From assembly GCA_017440965.1 (NCBI GenBank), contig JAFSGH010000009.1, positions 1 to 64,000 of the forward strand: DNA of 64,000 nt. Direction: 5' to 3'. The notes beneath the pieces are model-generated. The model worked only from the letters and a program-made list of their open reading frames with translations. It was not told the DNA's origin and did not search any database. A program made the position numbers and the translations under genes. The stretch comes from Clostridia bacterium. GTDB taxonomy: Bacteria > Bacillota > Clostridia > Oscillospirales > Acutalibacteraceae. Positions 30,877 to 42,393 of the stretch are shown here, piece by piece; position 1 is the first letter of the stretch; each line of letters opens with the position of its first letter.

Positions 30877-33800
30877 TTATTTGCCGGAGAAGAAGTTTGC
30901 GATCTGACGGAAGAAGTAAACGATTGAGCAGTAGATACCCTTATACTTAAAGATACCGCTGTTGTATCTGTGAACCATTCCGCAACGCTCGCATTCGGGA
31001 AGCTCAAGACCTACATCCTCAGGATCAGCTGTGATGTGGTTACCGCAATCGGAGCAATCACCGTTTGCTTCTGTACCTTCAACTACCCAATTTTCCACAT
31101 TGTGTCCCTTTGCGGGGATCTCTTCTGTGTAAGAATCATCACAGTTGATGCACTTGAATGTCTTTTCACCAACTGTATCGCAGCCTGCTTCTACTGTAAC
31201 TGTTCCGTTATCATAGATGTGTGCTGCCTTTGCTGTTTCATCATCCTGATATGAGTCGCCGCAATCTACACAAGTATATTCTGTGTAACCCTTAACAGTA
31301 CATGTTGCGGGAATTACAACTGCTTCGTAGTTGTGCTCTGTTGTCTTGCCGTAAGCTTCGCCGCAGGTTTCGCAGATAGCCTGTGCATTACATGTTGCTG
31401 TGCCGCCTGTATGACCTGTTGCTGCTTCGCCCTTTACAACATAGTTGTGAGCATCATCATAAATACAGATATACTCTGTGTAGCCGTCTTCTGTGCAGGT
31501 AGCTGCAACTTCATTTACCTGCCAGCCGCCGTGATTGAGAGCGGGGATAACCACGCTGTCCTTAACCTCGTGACAGTATCTGCACTTTGCACCTGCTGTG
31601 AAGCCGTCCTTTGTACAGGTTGCTGCCTGAGCTGTGAAATCTGCCCAGTCGTGTCCGAGAGCAGGAATTACTTCCTGAGGAATCTCGTAATCGCAGTTGA
31701 CACACTTTGAACCCTTTGTAAGACCTGTCTCTTCACAAGTGGGAGCTACAGCCTTAAGAGTCTCAAGCACGTGACCGTTTGCAAGGATGGTGCTCTGTGC
31801 AACAATAACTGCACCGCACTGCTCGCATTCTTCACCGTCTGTGCGTCCGTTTGTAAGGCAGTCTTCGGGTTCCCAGCCTTTAACGGTTATTATTTTATGC
31901 TCACCTGTGGGAGCTGTTTCATTTCTTGTTTCCTTGTGGTTTTCGTTGTTCTGGCAAACCCAGATCTCATAACCGCCCTTGTTACATGTTGCTGTAACCG
32001 CTTCTGTAAGAACATAATCATGTCCGAGTGCATCAATTGTTTCTCTTTCCTGAAGAACATCAAGACAAACAAAGCAAGTTATATAGTCTGTAGATCCGTC
32101 TGTTGTACATGTAGCAGGTGTACCGGGATCAACAACCTTTTTATGCTCGGGAGCGGGAACTGATACAGTTTTGCTGTAGCCGCAATCACAAGCCCATAAT
32201 TCTTCACCGTCTGCGCCTTCACCCTTACAGGTAGCTTCCTTGGTGGTAGTTACGGTATATTCGTGAGCGATGGTATTAAATGTAGCTGTAACTGTAAGAT
32301 CTGTCTTTACAACTGAGAAGTCAGTGTCCCAGCCTGCGAATTCATAGTGGGAATCCTCATCGTAATCCTTAGCGGGAGTACCTGCGGGTGCGGTTGCGGG
32401 ATCACCGTAGGGAACCTTATCCTGTACTTCAATTACATCACCGTTTCCGTCTACGAATGTAACAGAAAGGTAAGGCATTCTGTGTGCAGCATAAATGGTC
32501 TTATCCTCTGTAATTGTGATCTTGTCGCCTGCAGCATACTTTATTTCAGCACCGTCTTCTGCTGTATCTGCCCAACCGAGGAATTGACCGCCCTCACGAA
32601 CGGGAGTTTCACTTGTAACTGTAAATTCGTGAGCTGTCTTTGTAAGCTCTGTATTAGCATTGATATACTGAGTCTGAGTTTCTGCGGGGATCTCGGGCTG
32701 TCCCTTATTTGCATCCTGTGTGAATGTGATGGGAGTAGAGTAAACAGCGTATACATTTATATTGGGATTTGTTTCGTAAATTGTATAAACGCCTGTCTTA
32801 TTGATAGTATTTTCTGCAGCCTGAGTGTCCTCTCTCCAACCGAGGAATGTATAGGTCTTACCGTTGATCGTTACATTCTTTGCACCGGGAAGAGGAGTAG
32901 CAGCTGCTGTTGCAGCGTTCATAGCGTAGACATTCTTTGTGTCAACCTTGATAGTGCCGTCGGCAATAAGATAATGGAAGTTAGCAGTAAGCTGCTTTCC
33001 GAACAGTGCGTAGTAGGTTTCATTGAAGCCTACTGTAACTGAGCCTTCAACACCCTTTGTTGCAAGAGAGCTCTTTGCCCAGCCTGCGAAGTTTGCGCCT
33101 GTCTTAGTAGCTGTGTACTTGGAAAGATCAACAGTTGCAGTCTTGTTTCTGCCGACTAAAACTTCAATTGTCTGATCGGGAGAACCGCCGTTTGCTGAAG
33201 CGTTAAGATAGAGATTTGTCTTAAGATTGTTTGCTGCGTTGTTTATTGAATTAACAGCACTGTTGATAGTTGCCTGAGAATATGAAGCATAGCCGTTGTT
33301 GCTGTCAAATGCATCCATAATTGCTTTAGCCTGGTTTCTTGCGGAAGAAAGTGCAGCAGCTGAAGCGGGTGTATAACCTGAAGCTCCGTCAAAGGCTGCA
33401 GTATTGTTGTAAGCCTGACGAAGTGACTGGGTGTTTACGGTTGTAACGTTTGAATCTCTCTTATAAAGAAGGTAAAGATAGTCAGAATCGCTAACACCCT
33501 TGTTAAGGTCCAAGATATTACCGTTGTCCTGGAATGTTACTGTGGATACCCATCCGGAGACAGAATTTGCTCCGTTTGAAATCATAGCATCTGTAACGGG
33601 AGGACCGAAAGCAGGATCCTTGGTGATATAGATCTTGATGTCGTCACCGCCGGCACCTCTGTTCGTATCAACAATACCGTCACTGTGAAGCTGAGGAACC
33701 CATGCATGATAACCTGAATTTATAGGATACCAATATACGCCGCTCTGATACCAGTTTGCAGGAACGGAGCCATTATGGTCGAGTCTAAAACCTCTTACAG

Positions 33801-34119
33801 CTTCATTGGGATTTGTTGTCCATGTCCAACCCATATAAACATAATAATCGCCACCGGTACCTTTTGTAAGGTCATAATCAAGTAACTTACCGTTTGATGT
33901 ACCGCCTACAGCATTGATGACATTTGCTTTACATTCTGACTGCGATTTGTAATAGCAAATAACAACATCCTTGATGTACTTCTGGCCTGCGGGATAATAG
34001 TACTCCGTTGTAGCCGCATCAGCGTTAAGCGTCATCGGAGCAAGGGGAATAATCGTCAGCATCATCAACAGTGATAAAACTACTGACAAAACTTTTGATG
34101 GAAGTCTTTTTTTCTGCAT
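30877..34119 (-). CDS. Secreted surface protein with InlB-type and Cys-x2-Cys repeats (1080 aa)
   Basis: A signal peptide spans about residues 1-36 (KVLSVVLSLLMMLTIIPLAP). The N-terminal 240 residues are unlike any family I recognise. A FIVAR-like helical stretch (ARNQAKAIMDAF) follows, then four InlB/Listeria-Bacteroides type repeats (FAGWAKSS, FLGWREDT, FLGWADTA, FAGWDTDF), then about eight Cys-x2-Cys repeats (TCTKDGFTAGAKCRYC type) like those of the giant protein at 1253-9271. The C-terminus is CERCGMVHR followed by the aromatic helix IVYFFRQIANFFSGK. No LPXTG. Start 34119 is chosen because GAGAGG lies 9 nt upstream; a further ATG at 34128 has no room for a ribosome site. Likely adhesin or stalk protein. 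Confidence 0.8.
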   Translation of the reverse strand: MQKKRLPSKVLSVVLSLLMMLTIIPLAPMTLNADAATTEYYYPAGQKYIKDVVICYYKSQSECKANVINAVGGTSNGKLLDYDLTKGTGGDYYVYMGWTWTTNPNEAVRGFRLDHNGSVPANWYQSGVYWYPINSGYHAWVPQLHSDGIVDTNRGAGGDDIKIYITKDPAFGPPVTDAMISNGANSVSGWVSTVTFQDNGNILDLNKGVSDSDYLYLLYKRDSNVTTVNTQSLRQAYNNTAAFDGASGYTPASAAALSSARNQAKAIMDAFDSNNGYASYSQATINSAVNSINNAANNLKTNLYLNASANGGSPDQTIEVLVGRNKTATVDLSKYTATKTGANFAGWAKSSLATKGVEGSVTVGFNETYYALFGKQLTANFHYLIADGTIKVDTKNVYAMNAATAAATPLPGAKNVTINGKTYTFLGWREDTQAAENTINKTGVYTIYETNPNINVYAVYSTPITFTQDANKGQPEIPAETQTQYINANTELTKTAHEFTVTSETPVREGGQFLGWADTAEDGAEIKYAAGDKITITEDKTIYAAHRMPYLSVTFVDGNGDVIEVQDKVPYGDPATAPAGTPAKDYDEDSHYEFAGWDTDFSVVKTDLTVTATFNTIAHEYTVTTTKEATCKGEGADGEELWACDCGYSKTVSVPAPEHKKVVDPGTPATCTTDGSTDYITCFVCLDVLQERETIDALGHDYVLTEAVTATCNKGGYEIWVCQNNENHKETRNETAPTGEHKIITVKGWEPEDCLTNGRTDGEECEQCGAVIVAQSTILANGHVLETLKAVAPTCEETGLTKGSKCVNCDYEIPQEVIPALGHDWADFTAQAATCTKDGFTAGAKCRYCHEVKDSVVIPALNHGGWQVNEVAATCTEDGYTEYICIYDDAHNYVVKGEAATGHTGGTATCNAQAICETCGEAYGKTTEHNYEAVVIPATCTVKGYTEYTCVDCGDSYQDDETAKAAHIYDNGTVTVEAGCDTVGEKTFKCINCDDSYTEEIPAKGHNVENWVVEGTEANGDCSDCGNHITADPEDVGLELPECERCGMVHRYNSGIFKYKGIYCSIVYFFRQIANFFSGK

Positions 34120-34162
34120 AGTATTCATCCTCTCGAAAAATTGGTTAAATAAACCTGAAATT

Positions 34163-34191
34163 ATTATAATAAAAAATAATAAATAGTTCAA
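34163..34191 (-). promoter_or_regulatory. Promoter of the 1080-aa surface protein gene
   Basis: Minus strand TTGAAC, 17-nt spacer, TATAAT, about 45 nt before the start codon. Confidence 0.7.
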
Positions 34192-34567: not shown

Positions 34568-35368
34568 TCATGTAAAAAGTGTTTTAAAGAAATTTACGAT
34601 CATATTGAAGAAATCGGTTATTGCATCAATGATCTTTTCAAAAATACTTCTCTCGTCGGGAATCTCAATGCAATAGTCGGGAGCAAGTCTTAATACAGCG
34701 GGAAGACCGTTTGACGCAGTCTTTTCGATCTGAACGCTGTGCTCTCCGTAAGTGAGATGCTCCTGAGGAATAACAGCAACACCGTTTTCATCGCCCTTTA
34801 CATAGATGATTGCGCCGTCACTGAGTCCCCATGAGAGAGTGTAGTCTGCTACGGGACATTCCTTTGTCACGGAATTCCAGTTTTCATCATAGACCGTATC
34901 TAAGCTTGAAACCGTGATTGTGCCTGTTTCAGCATCAAAGCTTATGATGGGGTACTGCATGCCGGTATTATAGGGATCGCCGTAATAGATAACAATGCTT
35001 TCACCGTTCTTTACAGTATATGCATCAACACCTACTGTGGGAGATACACCGTCTGCCATAAAGAGCCATCCGTCCCATTTAAGTGCCGTATAGCTGCCTG
35101 CGGTAATACCGTTGATGGCAGTAATATATGCTCCGTACTGTCCCATTGAGGAGGTGACGCAAAGAGAGTCATCCGTTTCGTCTGCCTTGAGCAGAACATC
35201 GTAAACGGTCTCCCCCTCGTTAACGCTTACATCGCCGTAAAAGAGACATTCCTCAATGCCTTCAATACGAAGAGAAACGGTAACATCCTCTGATGCATAT
35301 GCTGTAAGCATAAGCATACTGAGTGTAAGCACTGCAACAATTGCCGTGCTCAGAATTTTTCTGATCAT
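34568..35368 (-). CDS. Secreted DUF4430 (transcobalamin C-terminal-like) protein (266 aa)
   Basis: A signal peptide (residues 1-20, ending YAS) precedes a DUF4430 domain at about 22-120. Its typical features are VNEGETVYDVLLKA, a Tyr/Gly pair before the INGI turn, KWDGWLFMADGV and NGESIVIYYGDP. DUF4430 is the same fold as the C-terminal domain of eukaryotic transcobalamin/intrinsic factor. A second beta domain follows and the protein ends in an aromatic amphipathic helix (IIDAITDFFNMIVNFFKTLF) that could hold it to the membrane or wall. Start 35368 has AAAGGA 9 nt upstream; the earlier ATG at 35386 lacks one. Last gene of the cobalamin-riboswitch operon. Corrinoid binding is an inference from fold and context. 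Confidence 0.8.
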   Translation of the reverse strand: MIRKILSTAIVAVLTLSMLMLTAYASEDVTVSLRIEGIEECLFYGDVSVNEGETVYDVLLKADETDDSLCVTSSMGQYGAYITAINGITAGSYTALKWDGWLFMADGVSPTVGVDAYTVKNGESIVIYYGDPYNTGMQYPIISFDAETGTITVSSLDTVYDENWNSVTKECPVADYTLSWGLSDGAIIYVKGDENGVAVIPQEHLTYGEHSVQIEKTASNGLPAVLRLAPDYCIEIPDERSIFEKIIDAITDFFNMIVNFFKTLFT

Positions 35369-35440
35369 AGTTTTTTGTCCTTTCATAGTTTTTTATGTAA
35401 TACAAAAAATTACCGTGCACTGTAATTTTCTGCAATTACC

Positions 35441-36433
35441 TCAGAATGAATTTCCGATATCTTCTCCCATGTCACAGGTGAAAAGCACGGCAATGCTGTC
35501 GTTTTCGGACACCTTATATGAGCTTATACCTTTATTGGGAAAAACACCGTTCACGGAATACATCCAGCCTGATAAGGCTCCCGCGTCCTTTTCATAGAGC
35601 TGATGTATTCCTTCTATATAATAATTTCCGAAGGCGGGGGTATAGGTGTATTCAAACTGAATTGCGCCTGCGGTACAGTATTTACAGCAGTCTGAACAGA
35701 CATTTTCTTTGCAGGCGCGTTTTATAATATCGAATACTGTGTCATTTTCCTCAATGATAACCTTTGTATTTTTGAGTATCACACCGTTTGCAGGTACAAA
35801 GCCTTTTTTTGCATCGGTAAGGCTGTCAGTGTTATTAAGAAGCGTCCGACAGGATATTGTGAGTGTGCAGAAGCTTTTTTTTGCTGCATCCTGCTCTTTT
35901 GTTGCAGAAGCTTCCTCCTTCGATGACTCATCCGCAGCGTCTGTTGTGCGGATCTCTGTTGTTTCTTCCTGTTGAAGGAAGGCTGCTGTTGATTCTTCAC
36001 ACTGAGCAGAGGTCAATTCCTCTTTGTGAGCAGAGGTTGATTTTTCGATGAAGGTGTTGTCTGCTTCGGTTGAAGGACCTGTTTCGGTAAAATCGGTATT
36101 GTCGGGCAAGCCTTCTTCTTCGGTAGGGCTCGGAGCGGTCGAGCCGGTTATAACAGGTTTTTCCGAGGAGATCTTTTCCTCAGACGGAAATTCTGTACCT
36201 TCATTTGCCGTCTTTTCTGCTTCAGTGCTTTTGGATTCCTGTGCTGTCGTTTCCTCTGCGGCTTCGCTTACCTGCGTTTCTTCTGCGGCTACCGTAAGCG
36301 CCGGTTCATCCGAAATGCACTCTTCAACGCTGCTTTTTTCTTCCTTAGCAGGCTCATTTACGGTATTTTGGGTACAACTGATAAGACCGAGCAGGATAAT
36401 AATGCTCAGAAAAGCTGAAAGATATTTTTTCAT
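35441..36433 (-). CDS. DUF4430 lipoprotein with Ser/Thr/Glu-rich linker (330 aa)
   Basis: The leader ends in lipobox LISC, lipid Cys at about residue 20. Residues 25-190 are a low-complexity Glu/Ser/Thr/Ala linker that would extend from the membrane through the wall. Residues about 195-325 form a DUF4430 domain (ENDTVFDIIKRAC, NYYIEGIHQLYEKDAGAL, GWMYSVNGVFPNKG). A Cys cluster CKENVCSDCCKYC sits in its middle, not a usual part of the domain. The gene starts 6 nt after the ECF S-component stop. Probably captures the ligand outside the cell and passes it to the transporter, like a binding lipoprotein; inferred. Confidence 0.82.
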   Translation of the reverse strand: MKKYLSAFLSIIILLGLISCTQNTVNEPAKEEKSSVEECISDEPALTVAAEETQVSEAAEETTAQESKSTEAEKTANEGTEFPSEEKISSEKPVITGSTAPSPTEEEGLPDNTDFTETGPSTEADNTFIEKSTSAHKEELTSAQCEESTAAFLQQEETTEIRTTDAADESSKEEASATKEQDAAKKSFCTLTISCRTLLNNTDSLTDAKKGFVPANGVILKNTKVIIEENDTVFDIIKRACKENVCSDCCKYCTAGAIQFEYTYTPAFGNYYIEGIHQLYEKDAGALSGWMYSVNGVFPNKGISSYKVSENDSIAVLFTCDMGEDIGNSF

Positions 36434-36439
36434 AGTGAT

Positions 36440-37153
36440 TTACTCCGTTGCAAAGATTCCGTATTTTATACGGAGTCTTGAAAACTTTTCCGCCATAGGC
36501 TTATTTATCACAAAAAGAAGCAGTGCGGTAGTAACGCCGTGAATTATATTGAAACTTATGCCTGAAAGATATACAGCGGCGGCAGAGGATAGAGTGATAT
36601 TATTTAGAAGCATTATCACCGAGCAGCTGTCCGCAATAAAGCCGTATACGGCAAATGTAAGTATTCCTCCCGTGATACTGACAGGCAACCGTTTGTTAAA
36701 ATAAGGCTTGCCTGAGAAGATCAGTCCTGAAAAAAAGCCTACAAGTCCCATTCCCAGCATCTGAAAGGGAGTGAACATTCCCTGGCCGAATATGAAGTTT
36801 GACATAAGCATGGAAAGAGCTCCCGTAAGAAAGCCTACATTCGGACCGAAGGCTATTGCCGTTACAATGACAAGAGCCGCAGTGGGCTTTACCTGAGGAA
36901 CAAAGATCATTACGCTTCGCGATGCGACGGCAAGTGCCGTCATCATTGCTACAAGCACTATTTCCCCTGTTTTTATCCTGCGTTTTTCAAAAAAAACAAA
37001 AAAGGGGATAAGAGCGCAGATTATTACTATCAATGAGGCGGCATAATAGCTTTTGCTTTCAATGAATTTCATACAAAGAAGGATTCCGGGCGGTGCACAG
37101 AGAAGAAGCGTGATTACTGAGACGGCGATCAGCCTTGAAGGCTTTTTATGCAT
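36440..37153 (-). CDS. ECF transporter S component, probably corrinoid-specific (237 aa)
   Basis: Integral membrane protein with about seven hydrophobic segments. The region MIFVPQVKPTAALVIVTAIA followed by FGPNVGFLTGALSMLMSN is the ECF substrate-specific component pattern and resembles CbrT-like S components known to carry cobalamin. It overlaps the end of the ECF ATPase gene by 25 nt and AGGTGA precedes its ATG, so translation is coupled. Substrate assignment rests on the upstream cobalamin riboswitch and on the DUF4430 neighbours, not on direct residue evidence. Confidence 0.82.
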   Translation of the reverse strand: MHKKPSRLIAVSVITLLLCAPPGILLCMKFIESKSYYAASLIVIICALIPFFVFFEKRRIKTGEIVLVAMMTALAVASRSVMIFVPQVKPTAALVIVTAIAFGPNVGFLTGALSMLMSNFIFGQGMFTPFQMLGMGLVGFFSGLIFSGKPYFNKRLPVSITGGILTFAVYGFIADSCSVIMLLNNITLSSAAAVYLSGISFNIIHGVTTALLLFVINKPMAEKFSRLRIKYGIFATE

Positions 37154-38799
37154 AGGCTGATCACCTCGCTTTCCGTTACAGCCTCGGGGAAGTGATCTCT
37201 TGCTATCTTATTTGCATTTGTAGTATAGAAGAAATTACTTGCAAAGAACTCATCCTTCGGTGCAATGTATGCACACGTTCCGTCAAAGACCATTGCACAC
37301 ATATCTGCGTATTCGGCGGTAAACTCCGTATCGTGGGATACCTGAATAACGGTGACACCGGAAGAGCACAGCTCTTTTATTATTTTTGCAAACTGCCTCT
37401 TAAAAACTGAGTCCATTCCCTTTGTGGGCTCGTCCATAAATATAATTTCAGGCTCCTTGAGAAGAACGATACAAAGAGCTGCTCTTTGCAGTTCGCCGCC
37501 GCTGAGATCGTACGGGTGGCGGCCGCAGAGGTGAGATATCTCAGTCAGCTGAGTTATCTCCTCAAGCCTTTTCCTTTTATCCTCTTTTGAAAGCTTCAGG
37601 CAGCTTGCGGCTGCCTCAAGGTCCTCAAGAAGTGTGTTCCCGGAAAACAGACTTTCGGGATTCTGCGGCAGTACGGCAACCGTGCCGTTATAAAGCTCTG
37701 AGGCCTTATATTTTCTTATATCCTTGCCGTTGATAATTACCTTTCCGCTTTTGCAGGGAAGAAGTCCGCTGATAACTCCGATGGCTGTTGACTTTCCCGC
37801 GGCATTTGCACCGAGAAGCGTAAAAAACGAGCCGACGGGTACCTTTAGTGAGAAATTGTTGAGTACAAACTGCTGTCTGTCATAGGAAAAATAAAGATTT
37901 TTTGCTTCTATTGCATATTTTTCCGAATTTCCGGAGGGGGATTTTTTTTCGCCGCGGTATATGACTTTGTTTTTAAGAATGTCATTAAGCCTTTTTCTTG
38001 CTTCTCCTACAGTAAGCGGCAGCTCCCCGTCTGCGTGAAGAGCAGAAAATATCCTCATAGGGGCGGGCATTGACAGATTTATAAATTCATTTTCGGAGAA
38101 AAGCCTTGTGTCAAGCTTCCGGGGGCTTGTGTCTGCAATTATACCGCCATCCTCAAGCACAATAAGTCTGTCTGCCATAGGAATTACATTCTGAAGACGG
38201 TGCTCGGTCATAATGACCGTGATCCCGTTTTCTCTGCACATTTTGTGTGCGGCACTGAGTAAGCTTTCTGCCGATACGGGATCAAGCTGTGAGGCAGGCT
38301 CATCAAATATAACGGTCTTAGGATGCATAGCGAGTATGCTTGCAAGGCAGACCATCTGCTTTTTTCCGCCCGAAAGCTCACTTATTTTTTTGTCGAGTAT
38401 GCTTTCAAGGGAAAAATATGCAGCTATCTCTGCTATGCGAAGTCTTATTGTCTTGCTGTCAAGGCCGAGATTTTCAAGACCGAAGGCAAGCTCTGTGCGA
38501 ACAGAGTGCGTTACGGTCTGGTATTGGGTATTCTGAAGAAGATATCCGATCTTCTCTGCGGAAGCTCTCCGTGAGAAATCCTTTTCGCTTTGTCCGAAAA
38601 AAACGATTTCTCCTTCCTTTTTTCCGCGGGGAGAAAGCTCGGGTTTCAGCATTCTCAGAAGCGTGCTTTTTCCGCTGCCCGATCTTCCGCAGATAACGGT
38701 AAATTCACCGTTATTTATCTTCAGATCAATATTTTTCAGTGCAGGCTTTTCTTCATTGGGATAATAAAAGCTGAGGCCTCTTATTTCAAAATCGACCAT
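37129..38799 (-). CDS. ECF transporter ATPase, two fused ABC domains (556 aa)
   Basis: Energy-coupling ATPase with EcfA1 and EcfA2 halves in one chain. First domain: Walker A GRSGSGKST at 38-46, signature LSGGKKQM, Walker B TVIFDEP. Second domain: Walker A GANAAGKST at 330-338, signature LSGGELQRAAL, Walker B IIFMDEP. Separate A1 and A2 genes are more usual; fusions occur in Clostridia. It overlaps the T gene by 19 nt and has a GGAGG site. Powers uptake together with the adjacent T and S components. Confidence 0.92.
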   Translation of the reverse strand: MVDFEIRGLSFYYPNEEKPALKNIDLKINNGEFTVICGRSGSGKSTLLRMLKPELSPRGKKEGEIVFFGQSEKDFSRRASAEKIGYLLQNTQYQTVTHSVRTELAFGLENLGLDSKTIRLRIAEIAAYFSLESILDKKISELSGGKKQMVCLASILAMHPKTVIFDEPASQLDPVSAESLLSAAHKMCRENGITVIMTEHRLQNVIPMADRLIVLEDGGIIADTSPRKLDTRLFSENEFINLSMPAPMRIFSALHADGELPLTVGEARKRLNDILKNKVIYRGEKKSPSGNSEKYAIEAKNLYFSYDRQQFVLNNFSLKVPVGSFFTLLGANAAGKSTAIGVISGLLPCKSGKVIINGKDIRKYKASELYNGTVAVLPQNPESLFSGNTLLEDLEAAASCLKLSKEDKRKRLEEITQLTEISHLCGRHPYDLSGGELQRAALCIVLLKEPEIIFMDEPTKGMDSVFKRQFAKIIKELCSSGVTVIQVSHDTEFTAEYADMCAMVFDGTCAYIAPKDEFFASNFFYTTNANKIARDHFPEAVTESEVISLCIKSLQG

Positions 38800-39656
38800 T
38801 TTCTTTCCTCCAGGATGTCATAGATAAACGGAAACAGCATTATTGCCGTAAAAAACAAGGATGAGACAATACCCGTTACAGAGGGAAGGGGTATTGATAT
38901 TACGGGATCATAGCTTGCCGTAAGCTCATTCTTTGTAAGAACAAATACGATTGCCCCTGAAATTACAAGGCAGCTGAGCATTATGTCCCTTACGGTGAAA
39001 GCATATGAATTAAAGGAGGTTCTGCCCTTTAGCCCGTAGCCTCTTGCACGCATTGAATCTGCTGTATCAATGCCTCTTTCAAGAGTCCAGGAAACGAGTA
39101 TCGACAGTCTTTTCGCAGAGCTTTTCAGCCGTGACATAATACTGTCGGAGGCGCTCAGTGCACCGATGCCCTTCTGAGCATCCGATATTTTTTCAGCCTG
39201 CTCGCTTATAAGAGGGATAAAGCGGAGAGACATAGATATGACAAGGGCGGTTTTCGGAGAAAAACGGCCGAAAAGGAAAAGTATACGGTCATTTGTCAGC
39301 ACTTCATTAAGGCTCATCAGCCATATTACAGAGGACGCGGCTCTCAGAGAAAAAACGAGTCCGTAAATTACCGCCTCAAGGGTAAAATTATTTCCGTCGG
39401 GCAGTGTGAAAAGCACCGTTACTCCGAAATGGCTGAAAAGCCCGTTTATAAGGGCAGAGGCAATTATCAGAGGCAGCACGAATTTCAAGGAAAAGGATAC
39501 TGCTTTCTTGCCGCGAAGCCTTATGTCATAAAGAAATGCACATACAAGTCCCGTAATAAGACTTACGGGATGAGAAGAAGTCAGTGTGAAGGAAAGCACA
39601 AAAACATAAAATATAAGTTCACTTACGGGGTGAAGTCCCCTGAAGCCTAATTTCAT
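38781..39656 (-). CDS. ECF transporter T component (EcfT/CbiQ family, 291 aa)
   Basis: Transmembrane coupling protein with five to six hydrophobic segments. The conserved C-terminal coupling helices are visible as SMSLRFIPLISEQAEKISDA and SMRARGYGLKGRTSF, the latter containing the ARG motif that contacts the ATPases. It overlaps the propeller gene by 4 nt and the ATPase by 19 nt. Being dedicated to one S component in the same operon indicates a group I type ECF transporter. Confidence 0.92.
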   Translation of the reverse strand: MKLGFRGLHPVSELIFYVFVLSFTLTSSHPVSLITGLVCAFLYDIRLRGKKAVSFSLKFVLPLIIASALINGLFSHFGVTVLFTLPDGNNFTLEAVIYGLVFSLRAASSVIWLMSLNEVLTNDRILFLFGRFSPKTALVISMSLRFIPLISEQAEKISDAQKGIGALSASDSIMSRLKSSAKRLSILVSWTLERGIDTADSMRARGYGLKGRTSFNSYAFTVRDIMLSCLVISGAIVFVLTKNELTASYDPVISIPLPSVTGIVSSLFFTAIMLFPFIYDILEERKWSILK

Positions 39657-40999
39657 AGAAGGTCTCCTGATAAAAGCAATTCAAAAATTTTCGTTAACAG
39701 TTTTATGATGATATCCGCAATTCTCTGAAATCTGTAATCAAGGCTAAGAGTCGGGATATGCTCCTCAAGCGCAAAAATATATCCCGAATCGTTTTTGAAA
39801 TAAAGCGTTCCCGCGCTGTCCGCAGTGACGGGACTTATACAGTATTGGGCATATTCGTTTTCGGGTCTGAAGATCTCCTTTATTACGGGAGACTCGGAAT
39901 CTTTGCTGTCTTGAACGAGCATAAGAGAGCCCGAGGAGGAATTTACCGTGAAATAGATATAAATATTTCCGTTGAATTTTTCATATGCATTGCTTATTAG
40001 CATATCAGCCTGAGGATAGGCGGGTAATTGCGCCGAATAAAGCTCCTTAAGGCTGTTTTTATCAAAGATATAAAATCTTCCCTTGCCGTTGTCGGAGGAA
40101 ACGGCGTAAAGCTTATTATTGTATGAGACGGGTGTTGATGTCATCTCTCCGGCGGTTCTGACAGACTGAAGAGAATGAAGCCTTCCCAAACTGTCCGCGC
40201 GAAATTTATAGATATATCCTGCCTTTGAAGCTGTGTAAAAGCAGCCTTCCTCTGTATCTGAGGAAATTGAACAGCGTATGTCGCCCGTAACCTGAAGAGA
40301 GGAGATAAGAGCTCCGTTTTTCTTTGATAATGATAATATATGTGACGCTGCAGCTGAGCCGTCCTTGCCGTCATCCGTGCCTATAATAACGGAGCTTTCT
40401 GTAAATGCACAGCTGCTTTTGTAAAATCCGCCTACACAGGAATATGTCCATAGAGCGTCTTTTCTTTCATCCGTTCTGTTTTTGTCCGTATCCGCGGTAT
40501 CAATACAGACAAACTCGGCGGCTTCGGTCTCGCCGTTCCAGAAGCCTGTGTATATTCTTTTATCCTCATAGACAATGGGGCTTAATGCCTGACCTGCAAG
40601 AGGAGCTTCAAAATACCATAATGGGGTAAGGCTTTCTTCATCAAAAGCATAAACCTTTCCGCCGTCAAGCTGAATAAATACAGTGTTTTCAGCAATAAGA
40701 GGTGAGGAAACGGAATAGAAATTTCGTCCCTGAAGCGGCACACTTGAGATTATTTCTCCGCTGCTTTTACTGAGCTTATAAAGCGAGGCTCCTGATACCG
40801 TATATATATGGTCATTATAAACTACGGGAGGGGTGGGCGCACTGCGGTAGCCGCTGCCCATTTTTGTTGCATATTTCAGTGTAACATCATCCGTCGGCGT
40901 GGGATATGAGATGACAAGGCTACTGAATTGAGCAAAGGCAGTTGCGGAGAAGGATATTAATATCAAAGCAGCAAAAACTGCGGTAAAAAGCTTTTTCAT
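39653..40999 (-). CDS. Secreted PQQ-like beta-propeller protein, first gene of the B12 operon (448 aa)
   Basis: A signal peptide (1-23, ending AFA) precedes repeated blades of the PQQ/BamB-like type: LYKLSKSSGEII, VYAFDEESLTPLWYFEAPL, LYAVSSDNGKGRFYIFDKNS. There is no PQQ-enzyme catalytic motif that I can see, so a binding role is likely. The last 25 residues are an amphipathic aromatic/aliphatic helix (IIIKLLTKIFELLL). It is the first gene behind the cobalamin riboswitch and overlaps ecfT by 4 nt. Start ATG 40999 has GGGAG 5 nt upstream; the in-frame GTG at 41005 overlaps that site and is rejected. Possibly holds corrinoid or the DUF4430 partners; function unknown. Confidence 0.78.
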   Translation of the reverse strand: MKKLFTAVFAALILISFSATAFAQFSSLVISYPTPTDDVTLKYATKMGSGYRSAPTPPVVYNDHIYTVSGASLYKLSKSSGEIISSVPLQGRNFYSVSSPLIAENTVFIQLDGGKVYAFDEESLTPLWYFEAPLAGQALSPIVYEDKRIYTGFWNGETEAAEFVCIDTADTDKNRTDERKDALWTYSCVGGFYKSSCAFTESSVIIGTDDGKDGSAAASHILSLSKKNGALISSLQVTGDIRCSISSDTEEGCFYTASKAGYIYKFRADSLGRLHSLQSVRTAGEMTSTPVSYNNKLYAVSSDNGKGRFYIFDKNSLKELYSAQLPAYPQADMLISNAYEKFNGNIYIYFTVNSSSGSLMLVQDSKDSESPVIKEIFRPENEYAQYCISPVTADSAGTLYFKNDSGYIFALEEHIPTLSLDYRFQRIADIIIKLLTKIFELLLSGDLL

Positions 41000-41160
41000 A
41001 GGCACTCCCGTGTTGTTTTTTCGGATTTTTTCGGCAGACGGTGTGCGAAAATATCAGTTTTTGTGACGCTAAAACAGAGCATTGATCTGATATTTTTTTC
41101 AGCCGGAAGGCTTTTCACTGCTTTGAGATACTAGTATTTTCCGTGCTGAAGGCTTATCGA

Positions 41161-41197
41161 TACAAAAGAAAATGCCTTCTTCCGAACGGAAAAAGGC
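41161..41197 (-). terminator. Expression-platform terminator of the cobalamin riboswitch
   Basis: Minus-strand stem GCCTTTTTCC / GGAAGAAGGC with GTTC loop followed by ATTTTCTTTT, between aptamer and first gene. It fits transcription attenuation when B12 is bound. Confidence 0.8.
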
Positions 41198-41221
41198 AAA
41201 TTGTAAAGCAAAATAATACTC

Positions 41222-41374
41222 CCTTGGAGTAAAACCTGACTGTCACACACTCTTCCGCTTGCCCAAAAGTGATATAGGGACTTTATCGGGCAGGCATTCC
41301 GACTGACAGCTCCGGGCTGATAACGGCAATGGCGGTTGCTCAGGATTTTCACCTGTATTTCCCTGACTCCGATA
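41222..41374 (-). promoter_or_regulatory. Cobalamin (B12) riboswitch aptamer
   Basis: On the minus strand the core is in order: P1 arm GGAGT, GGGAA, CAGGTGAAAATCCTG, GAGCAACCGCCA, a GCCCGGAGCTGT segment, the B12 box AGTCGGAATGCCTGCC, and a closing ACTCC arm. This matches the conserved cobalamin element (short variant with reduced peripheral helices). It lies 220 nt upstream of the ECF/DUF4430 operon and is followed by an attenuator hairpin, so the operon should be shut off when corrinoid is plentiful. Confidence 0.9.
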
Positions 41375-41394
41375 AAATATATTCATTTTTTCTG

Positions 41395-41423
41395 ATTATA
41401 ACAGATAAAAATGCATTTGTCTA
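41395..41423 (-). promoter_or_regulatory. Promoter of the riboswitch-controlled operon
   Basis: Minus strand TAGACA, 17-nt spacer, TATAAT, about 20 nt before the aptamer. Confidence 0.7.
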
Positions 41424-41433
41424 CAGTTTTTTT

Positions 41434-42393
41434 TCAGTAAGAAAAATATTTGTAAAAGACCGGATATGAATTGAGGAACTGCTGAAGATCCTTTCTTAAG
41501 GAGCTTCCCGGATCATTTATTGTAAAGGCAGAGGGTGTAAGCTTATCCCCCGTAAAGCCCGTGATAACTATCCAGTGCTGTGAGCCGTATCTGTTTTTTG
41601 CACCGAAAAGAACGGGCTTACCGCTGCTTAAAATATCGTAAATACTTTTCAGATAGTCTGCCGAAGAGGTATGTACCTTGTAATCTGTCGGCCAGTAAAC
41701 ATTGCCTGAGGAGGAATAAGAAAGCTTTTTTGACATAGCATCGGGATATATGCTGATGCCCCTTCTGTAGGATTCGAGCATTGCAATTGAAGTAGTGGCA
41801 CAGCCTATTTTGGCAATTGTTTTTCCCGAATTTCCGATATAGACATTTGCCCATCGTGTATCGGTCTGCTTATATGAGGGAACGGCGAGACTGATGCTGT
41901 TTAACTGTGGCTCACGGAATTTTAGATATGCAGAGCTGACATATCCCGTTTTGTTGCCGTGGTAAAGTATTTTTGCCCAACCGTTTTGTTGTGAGAGCAC
42001 TGCGACAGCTTCACCCTTACTGAGACTGCCTATTATCTTATAGGCGGTCGAGTCTCCTGCTCTGACATTAAGAGCAGTGCTTTGGGTATTTACCGTTGCA
42101 CTTTTTTCAGAAACGGTTTTTATGTAGCTTTTGTGACAGTAGCCGTAGGAATAACGGGAATAACGGACGTAAAAGAAGCTTCCGTTTTCGGATACTACCG
42201 TAACAAGGCTTCCTTTGGGAAGTGATGTCTTGACAGAGGATGTGGTTGTTGCAGAGCTTCTGACATTGAGATTTCCTGAAGCGGTATTTACTATGCCTGC
42301 CCGTGGGCTCTCTGCGGCATAAGCCTTTACAGGGGCTGCAAAAAAGCCTGCAAGCAGTAAAAGAGTTAATAGAACTGAGATTATTTTTTTCAT
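41434..42393 (-). CDS. Secreted C39-like cysteine peptidase with two SH3b domains (319 aa)
   Basis: A signal peptide (1-26) is followed by two bacterial SH3 domains (about 35-95 and 100-160, each with LNVRSSA or LNVRAGD and a Gly-Tyr end) that usually bind peptidoglycan. A papain-like C39_2 domain (about 170-319) has Cys in IGCATTSIAML, His in GSQHWIVITGF and Asp in INDPG. Probably a wall-associated endopeptidase or hydrolase. Its stop lies just before the B12 operon promoter; it is monocistronic. Confidence 0.85.
   Translation of the reverse strand: MKKIISVLLTLLLLAGFFAAPVKAYAAESPRAGIVNTASGNLNVRSSATTTSSVKTSLPKGSLVTVVSENGSFFYVRYSRYSYGYCHKSYIKTVSEKSATVNTQSTALNVRAGDSTAYKIIGSLSKGEAVAVLSQQNGWAKILYHGNKTGYVSSAYLKFREPQLNSISLAVPSYKQTDTRWANVYIGNSGKTIAKIGCATTSIAMLESYRRGISIYPDAMSKKLSYSSSGNVYWPTDYKVHTSSADYLKSIYDILSSGKPVLFGAKNRYGSQHWIVITGFTGDKLTPSAFTINDPGSSLRKDLQQFLNSYPVFYKYFSY

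Follow-up and report, generated by a model that had tools for sequence, protein, structure and literature searches.

The operon at 34568–41423 on the minus strand of a 64,000 nucleotide stretch of contig JAFSGH010000009.1 from a Clostridia bacterium (the whole stretch is referred to as the window) is predicted, with considerable confidence, to serve the extracellular capture of corrinoids and their import via an energy-coupling factor (ECF) transporter. In order of transcription it comprises a leader RNA, an exported β-propeller, EcfT, fused EcfA1A2 ATPases and an S component, followed by two exported DUF4430 proteins, the first of which is a lipoprotein. These genes, all listed in a first-pass annotation of the sequence, are present on the minus strand and are each supported by Pfam. 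Adjacent genes overlap by 4, 19 or 25 bases or are separated by gaps of 6 and 54 bases, and hence are likely to be on a single transcript. The ECF set is complete, with EcfT, both ATPases and the S component all identified (Pfam, NCBIfam). Import of B12 or a similar compound is likely because the leader is of the B12-sensor type, the importer is related to CbrT, and an exported protein has a predicted shape like that of the B12 carriers.

We propose that excess corrinoid would fold the leader such that the terminator forms and the operon is shut off, and that corrinoid shortage would lead to production of the propeller and DUF4430 proteins. The exported proteins would be held at the outer face of the membrane by a lipid anchor or a C-terminal helix. 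The corrinoid would lie between the propeller and a DUF4430 domain, as transcobalamin holds its ligand between toroid and β-domain, so that the propeller would take over the role of the toroid half. The corrinoid would then be passed to the S component, which the ATPases would drive. The parts of the multi-step capture chain originally suggested (secreted binder, lipoprotein, ECF transporter) are present, with the order of hand-over being one that we infer. A more specific proposal, to which we give marginally less than an even chance, is that of a chimaeric B12 carrier, in which the toroid has been swapped several times independently for a BtuG-like propeller, with the corrinoid being gripped between the propeller face and the β-domain, a CbrT-type ECF transporter being fed, and the leader reading methyl-/hydroxocobalamin, not adenosylcobalamin.

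The leader RNA, the transporter and corrinoid use

No riboswitch match at the Rfam gathering score was observed anywhere in the window. RF01689 (AdoCbl-II) matched the leader with 34.3 bits (cut-off 36.5, E 3e-6) and RF00174 with 26.6 bits (cut-off 31.5, E 6.8e-5). The RF01689 match is significant, although both are under the gathering scores. The RF00174 match is the sole one in the source genome, and a stricter RF00174 search across 117 genomes missed the window leader. Because the leader fell below the Rfam cut-offs, a covariance model was built from the leaders of 20 relatives, with the window excluded. This model matched the window leader end to end (model positions 1–101) with 90.1 bits (E 4.1e-24, the E-values of this model being rough because of a shortened calibration), and 9 of its 20 base pairs have compensatory, i.e. 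both-side, changes. Two of its members pass RF01689 themselves (loci L101 and L076, with 41.7 and 38.7 bits, respectively), and another model, built from 18 class-I relatives, gave 30 bits (E 1.3e-6) with the window leader. Judged by its sequence, the leader belongs to the cobalamin-riboswitch family; it has the core sequence, fold and terminator behind the aptamer in common with RF00174 and RF01689 riboswitches, but forms a subfamily of its own in these Clostridia, the window member of which is below both gathering scores. The B12 aptamer of the first-pass annotation is therefore real, although its span is about 41279–41380 and not 41222–41374.

The attenuator proposed from the sequence was also found, as a hairpin resembling a terminator, with a T-rich tail, at 41198–41173, downstream of the aptamer; three such sites occur in a 701-base stretch, compared with 0.5 expected. 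In the leaders of relatives, read by eye, the aptamer is likewise followed by a hairpin and by stems resembling terminators. The leader would act as an off switch, and its hairpin with GGGCAA in the loop is perhaps the partner arm of a loop-loop contact of the aptamer. A promoter match is present where one had been suggested (11 of 12 positions), yet such matches are not above chance (1 found, 1.2 expected).

Of the solved S components, CbrT is the closest to that of the window, in agreement with the relationship first suggested: the best Protein Data Bank (PDB) chain is 6fnp_A (E 4.1e-6), and a 10-sequence S profile matched 6fnp_A with E 5.9e-19, leading the next, RibU (3p5n, E 6.6e-5), by 46 bits. 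According to PMC5997447, 6FNP is ECF-CbrT, a reported carrier of cobalamin and cobinamide. This Lactobacillus delbrueckii system has the same ECF parts and a sequence-related S component (profile E 6e-19); the window differs from it in that T, fused A1A2 and S are in one operon with exported proteins.

The source genome (2.28 Mb, 86 contigs, 86% complete), the closest named relatives of which are Oscillospiraceae and other Clostridia, gives the picture of a corrinoid user that must import. At C9:64000–78000 (L131) the genes for a corrinoid protein, a RACo-like activator and two proteins of the URO-D family lie side by side, a make-up that we take to be that of a corrinoid methyltransferase system; glycoside-hydrolase-like genes adjoin. 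Six further B12-binding-domain matches, one of them below cut-off, were found in the genome. FecCD (BtuC family), CbiC, CobS, CobA/BtuR and Cob_adeno_trans gave no matches, in a genome whose 86% completeness means that absence of gene families is not proof; in 14 control genomes, the same families were matched in 13, 7, 10, 7 and 9, respectively. The earlier suggestion of uptake without a BtuF/ABC system is borne out to this extent, as regards a BtuC-type permease. With no adenosyltransferase of either of the two families found and with the clearest corrinoid enzyme set being the methyltransferase system, we consider a class IIa ligand preference (methyl-/hydroxocobalamin) the more likely for the window leader. 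In PMC11477304, class IIa cobalamin switches are described as favoring methyl-/hydroxocobalamin and class IIb switches adenosylcobalamin.

The exported proteins and transcobalamin

The transcobalamins, intrinsic factors and haptocorrins consist of an α/α toroid and a β-domain. In its predicted model, the second exported protein has the fold of the transcobalamin β-domain, as stated for DUF4430 in the first-pass annotation, i.e. a β-grasp fold with a β-hairpin inserted after the helix, as in transcobalamin-like SLBB proteins; the export (signal sequences judged by eye) and the CbiO/CbiQ-type operon of such proteins are also found. The DUF4430 domain of the lipoprotein is, by sequence, akin to DUF4430 domains that are fused to α/α toroids in a single chain in some related riboswitch operons (BLASTP E 1e-19 with the DUF4430 part of one such fusion, P0015), and the 15 best Foldseek matches of the predicted P0015 model are intrinsic factor, transcobalamin or haptocorrin. 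The proposed likeness to transcobalamin thus holds for the β-domain half. DUF4430 alone is only half of such a carrier; the α/α toroid model gave no match in the window, where the two-domain arrangement is therefore not seen and a β-propeller is found instead. The window system further differs from transcobalamin in being bacterial, in being encoded with an ECF transporter and in having DUF4430 in two separate proteins. The source genome has a third DUF4430 gene at C32:233–709 (L132), which encodes a 158-residue lipoprotein; it lies at the end of a contig, after an oxidoreductase-like gene, and no leader was found there.

The propeller is assigned to its family by sequence, from which its fold is predicted; it is exported and encoded in the same operon as the CbrT-type S component. 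Its gene is the first behind the leader, the position occupied by the toroid in other operons. Of 132 related operons, 17 encode only a propeller, 60 only a toroid, one both (8.3 expected) and 54 neither. The toroid/propeller state changes six times on a quick EcfA tree, and a single propeller clade was rejected (p-AU 0.003). That a propeller is able to catch B12 is indicated by BtuG of Bacteroides, which PMC6143338 and PMC10404256 describe as a surface β-propeller encoded beside a B12 transporter, as is putatively the case in the window. BtuG, however, is Gram-negative and partners the TonB-dependent BtuB, and no sequence kinship to the window propeller was found.

Related operons and alternative explanations

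Gene maps of relatives reveal a recurrent plan, i.e. leader, toroid or propeller protein, DUF4430, EcfT, EcfA1A2 and S; the window operon and the propeller operons closest to it, by contrast, have the DUF4430 genes last. Of two surveys, the first covered 117 genomes (the source genome and those of its genus, family and order; RF00174 at E <= 0.01), with RF00174 matches in 64, DUF4430 in 97 and the S component in 70. Of 81 cobalamin-riboswitch matches (80 in relatives, one in the source genome), 46 have a same-strand DUF4430 gene no more than 8 kb downstream and 22 have an S-component match within 12 kb. The second survey used one genome per species (84,980 species); 80 named loci were taken of 491 confirmed, and none of the 76 that could be scored was used in building either RNA model. 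DUF4430 is present in 64 of these, a toroid or propeller in 55 and a same-strand upstream leader in 45; for the 57 loci with at least 6 kb upstream, the counts are 51, 49 and 40, respectively. Hosts among the named loci include Paenibacillus, Bacillus, Enterococcus, Lacticaseibacillus, Clostridium, Blautia, Papillibacter, Sporobacter and Lutispora.

Other arrangements also occur. At L101, a DUF4430 pair like that of the window lies behind its own leader (90.7 bits with the 20-relative model, the training set of which includes it; it passes RF01689 independently, as given above), on a contig without ECF genes. At L057, the gene behind the leader encodes a propeller and points away from the ECF genes, and the contig ends after it. 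Four loci of the same genus (L105, L111, L123, L127) have, separate from the ECF genes, capture-type runs in which a cobalamin leader is followed by two DUF4430 genes and between one and three toroid genes, and in relatives L092–L098, L112, L115, L117 and L118 short DUF4430 genes lie behind a cobalamin riboswitch, with the next gene in several cases encoding a small S component (about 180 residues).

Several results weigh against the proposed capture and import of corrinoids, or against parts of it. The leader is under the gathering scores of both Rfam families. The S component is under every NCBIfam cut-off (folate-type 29.2 of 60 bits, riboflavin-type 26.5 of 99 bits), and Pfam places it in the riboflavin S family (ECF-ribofla_trS). 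The match of DUF4430 to haptocorrin is modest (E 8e-4 by sequence, 9e-4 by profile), and in the P0015 model the two domains are placed unlike those of intrinsic factor (root-mean-square deviation 10.6 Å over 340 residues, predicted template modeling score 0.65). The propeller profile matches BamB and PQQ proteins, and its 37 PDB matches at E <= 0.01 do not include BtuG. In the available stretches of the 132 related operons, 60 have no leader and 40 no DUF4430; neither toroid nor propeller is present in the 54 noted above (many of whose contigs end early), or in 32 of the 99 with at least 6 kb upstream, and one operon (L201) has both. In the near relatives L032, L033 and L034, the leader stands directly before EcfT-A1A2-S, and neither DUF4430 nor a propeller was found in the operon, which thus can do without the exported proteins; elsewhere in the genomes concerned, a leader is followed by short DUF4430 genes (L113, L120, L124).

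With respect to the propeller, there is a substantial possibility, appreciably below an even chance, that corrinoid is imported but that the propeller is only a scaffold or wall tether, the DUF4430 proteins or the S component alone binding the ligand. Domains fused to transcobalamin-like domains, propellers included, have been suggested as surface tethers (PMC1796856), and the BamB-type profile matches and the near relatives that manage without a propeller point the same way. However, the placing of the propeller gene first behind the leader, where the toroid is found elsewhere, the single co-occurrence in 132 operons and the repeated exchange on the EcfA tree argue for a more specific role, as does the presence of other means of anchoring, namely the lipid anchor of the lipoprotein and the C-terminal amphipathic ends of other proteins, as seen by eye in their sequences. 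Overall, we regard participation of the propeller in holding the ligand as an evenly balanced proposition.

Import of another tetrapyrrole or of cobalt (e.g. haem, with the riboswitch merely tying uptake to B12 status) is improbable. Although the CbiQ/CbiO-like parts resemble those of cobalt transporters and a haem ECF transporter is reported (PMC7299338), the S component is nearest to CbrT by the margin given above, the operon's Pfam matches include no CbiM/CbiN-type family, and the DUF4430 model has a B12-carrier fold; moreover, imported cobalt would lack a known corrin pathway, since CbiC was not found in the 86% complete source genome. It is less probable still, indeed very unlikely, that the aptamer of the leader has decayed and serves no regulatory function; its scores below both Rfam cut-offs might suggest this, but the end-to-end match to the relatives' model, the terminator behind the aptamer and the compensatory changes among relatives imply otherwise.

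Features of the operon, neighboring genes and prior work

Features of the putative corrinoid capture and import operon, in order of transcription
Feature	Position	Strand	Evidence
Promoter-like site TAGACA-17-TATAAT (TG ahead of second hexamer)	41395..41423	-	11/12 matches; 1 found, 1.2 expected by shuffles (weak)
Cobalamin riboswitch aptamer, class-II-like (AdoCbl-II, RF01689)	41279..41380	-	Relatives' covariance model; RF01689, RF00174
Hairpin, GGGCAA in loop	41248..41271	-	GGGCAA at same place in 13 of 18 leaders
Intrinsic terminator (expression platform), T-rich tail	41163..41198	-	11 base pairs, tail TTTTCTTTTG
Exported PQQ-type β-propeller, 448 residues, C-terminal amphipathic segment (by eye)	39653..40999	-	PQQ_2 E 1.8e-11; profile matches BamB chains
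EcfT, CbiQ family	38781..39656	-	PF02361 E 1.1e-10
EcfA1-EcfA2 fused ATPases, 556 residues	37129..38799	-	Two ABC_tran stretches; TIGR04520 332 bits (cut-off 315)
S component related to CbrT	36440..37153	-	Pfam ECF-ribofla_trS, ECF_trnsprt; best PDB chain 6fnp_A
Lipoprotein (LISC lipobox, by eye), acidic linker, C-terminal DUF4430	35441..36433	-	DUF4430 E 1.2e-14
Exported protein: DUF4430 (residues 32-139), Ig/FnIII-like domain (142-243), C-terminal helix (248-271)	34568..35386	-	Pfam DUF4430

For the propeller, the ATG at 40999, which lies behind GGGAG, is the preferred start; the mechanical open reading frame begins at 41005. Just upstream of the operon, 41434–42393 (minus strand) encodes SH3_3 domains and a C39-type peptidase-like domain, and at L033 a 319-residue protein with a similar start is encoded upstream of the leader. 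On its other side, 30877–34191 (minus strand) encodes an exported protein of 1104 residues that contains Flg_new repeats and numerous Cys pairs; at L032 and L034, proteins resembling it in length and start follow the S gene, with no DUF4430 gene found there. The C-terminal ends of this protein, the propeller and the second DUF4430 protein are similar amphipathic, Phe/Ile/Leu-rich stretches (by eye), which perhaps constitute a shared membrane contact.

The general idea is already known, and the present work adds further evidence for it. In Burroughs et al. 2007 (PMC1796856), Gram-positive transcobalamin-like proteins with toroids or propellers and CbiO/CbiQ operons were predicted to be B12 scavengers, and the transcobalamins of animals to have been acquired from such bacteria. 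The secreted transcobalamin-like β-grasp (SLBB) proteins described there, some of which have a toroid or propeller, resemble those of the window, also in operon type. In the available text of that paper no mention of a riboswitch or of ECF was found, and a tether role is suggested for fused propellers; the leader, the CbrT kinship, the structure models and the repeated toroid-propeller exchange thus go beyond it. No later test of the prediction turned up in literature searches.

The riboswitch-led CbrT-type ECF operons, together with the models of bacterial proteins, strengthen the 2007 prediction on the descent of the animal B12 carriers, and the loci in Paenibacillus, Clostridium, Blautia, Papillibacter and Lutispora provide cultured hosts for testing. 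If the propeller does indeed replace the toroid, two unrelated folds would serve one function alongside a single conserved partner domain, and the logic of the binding pocket would therefore be testable by domain exchange.
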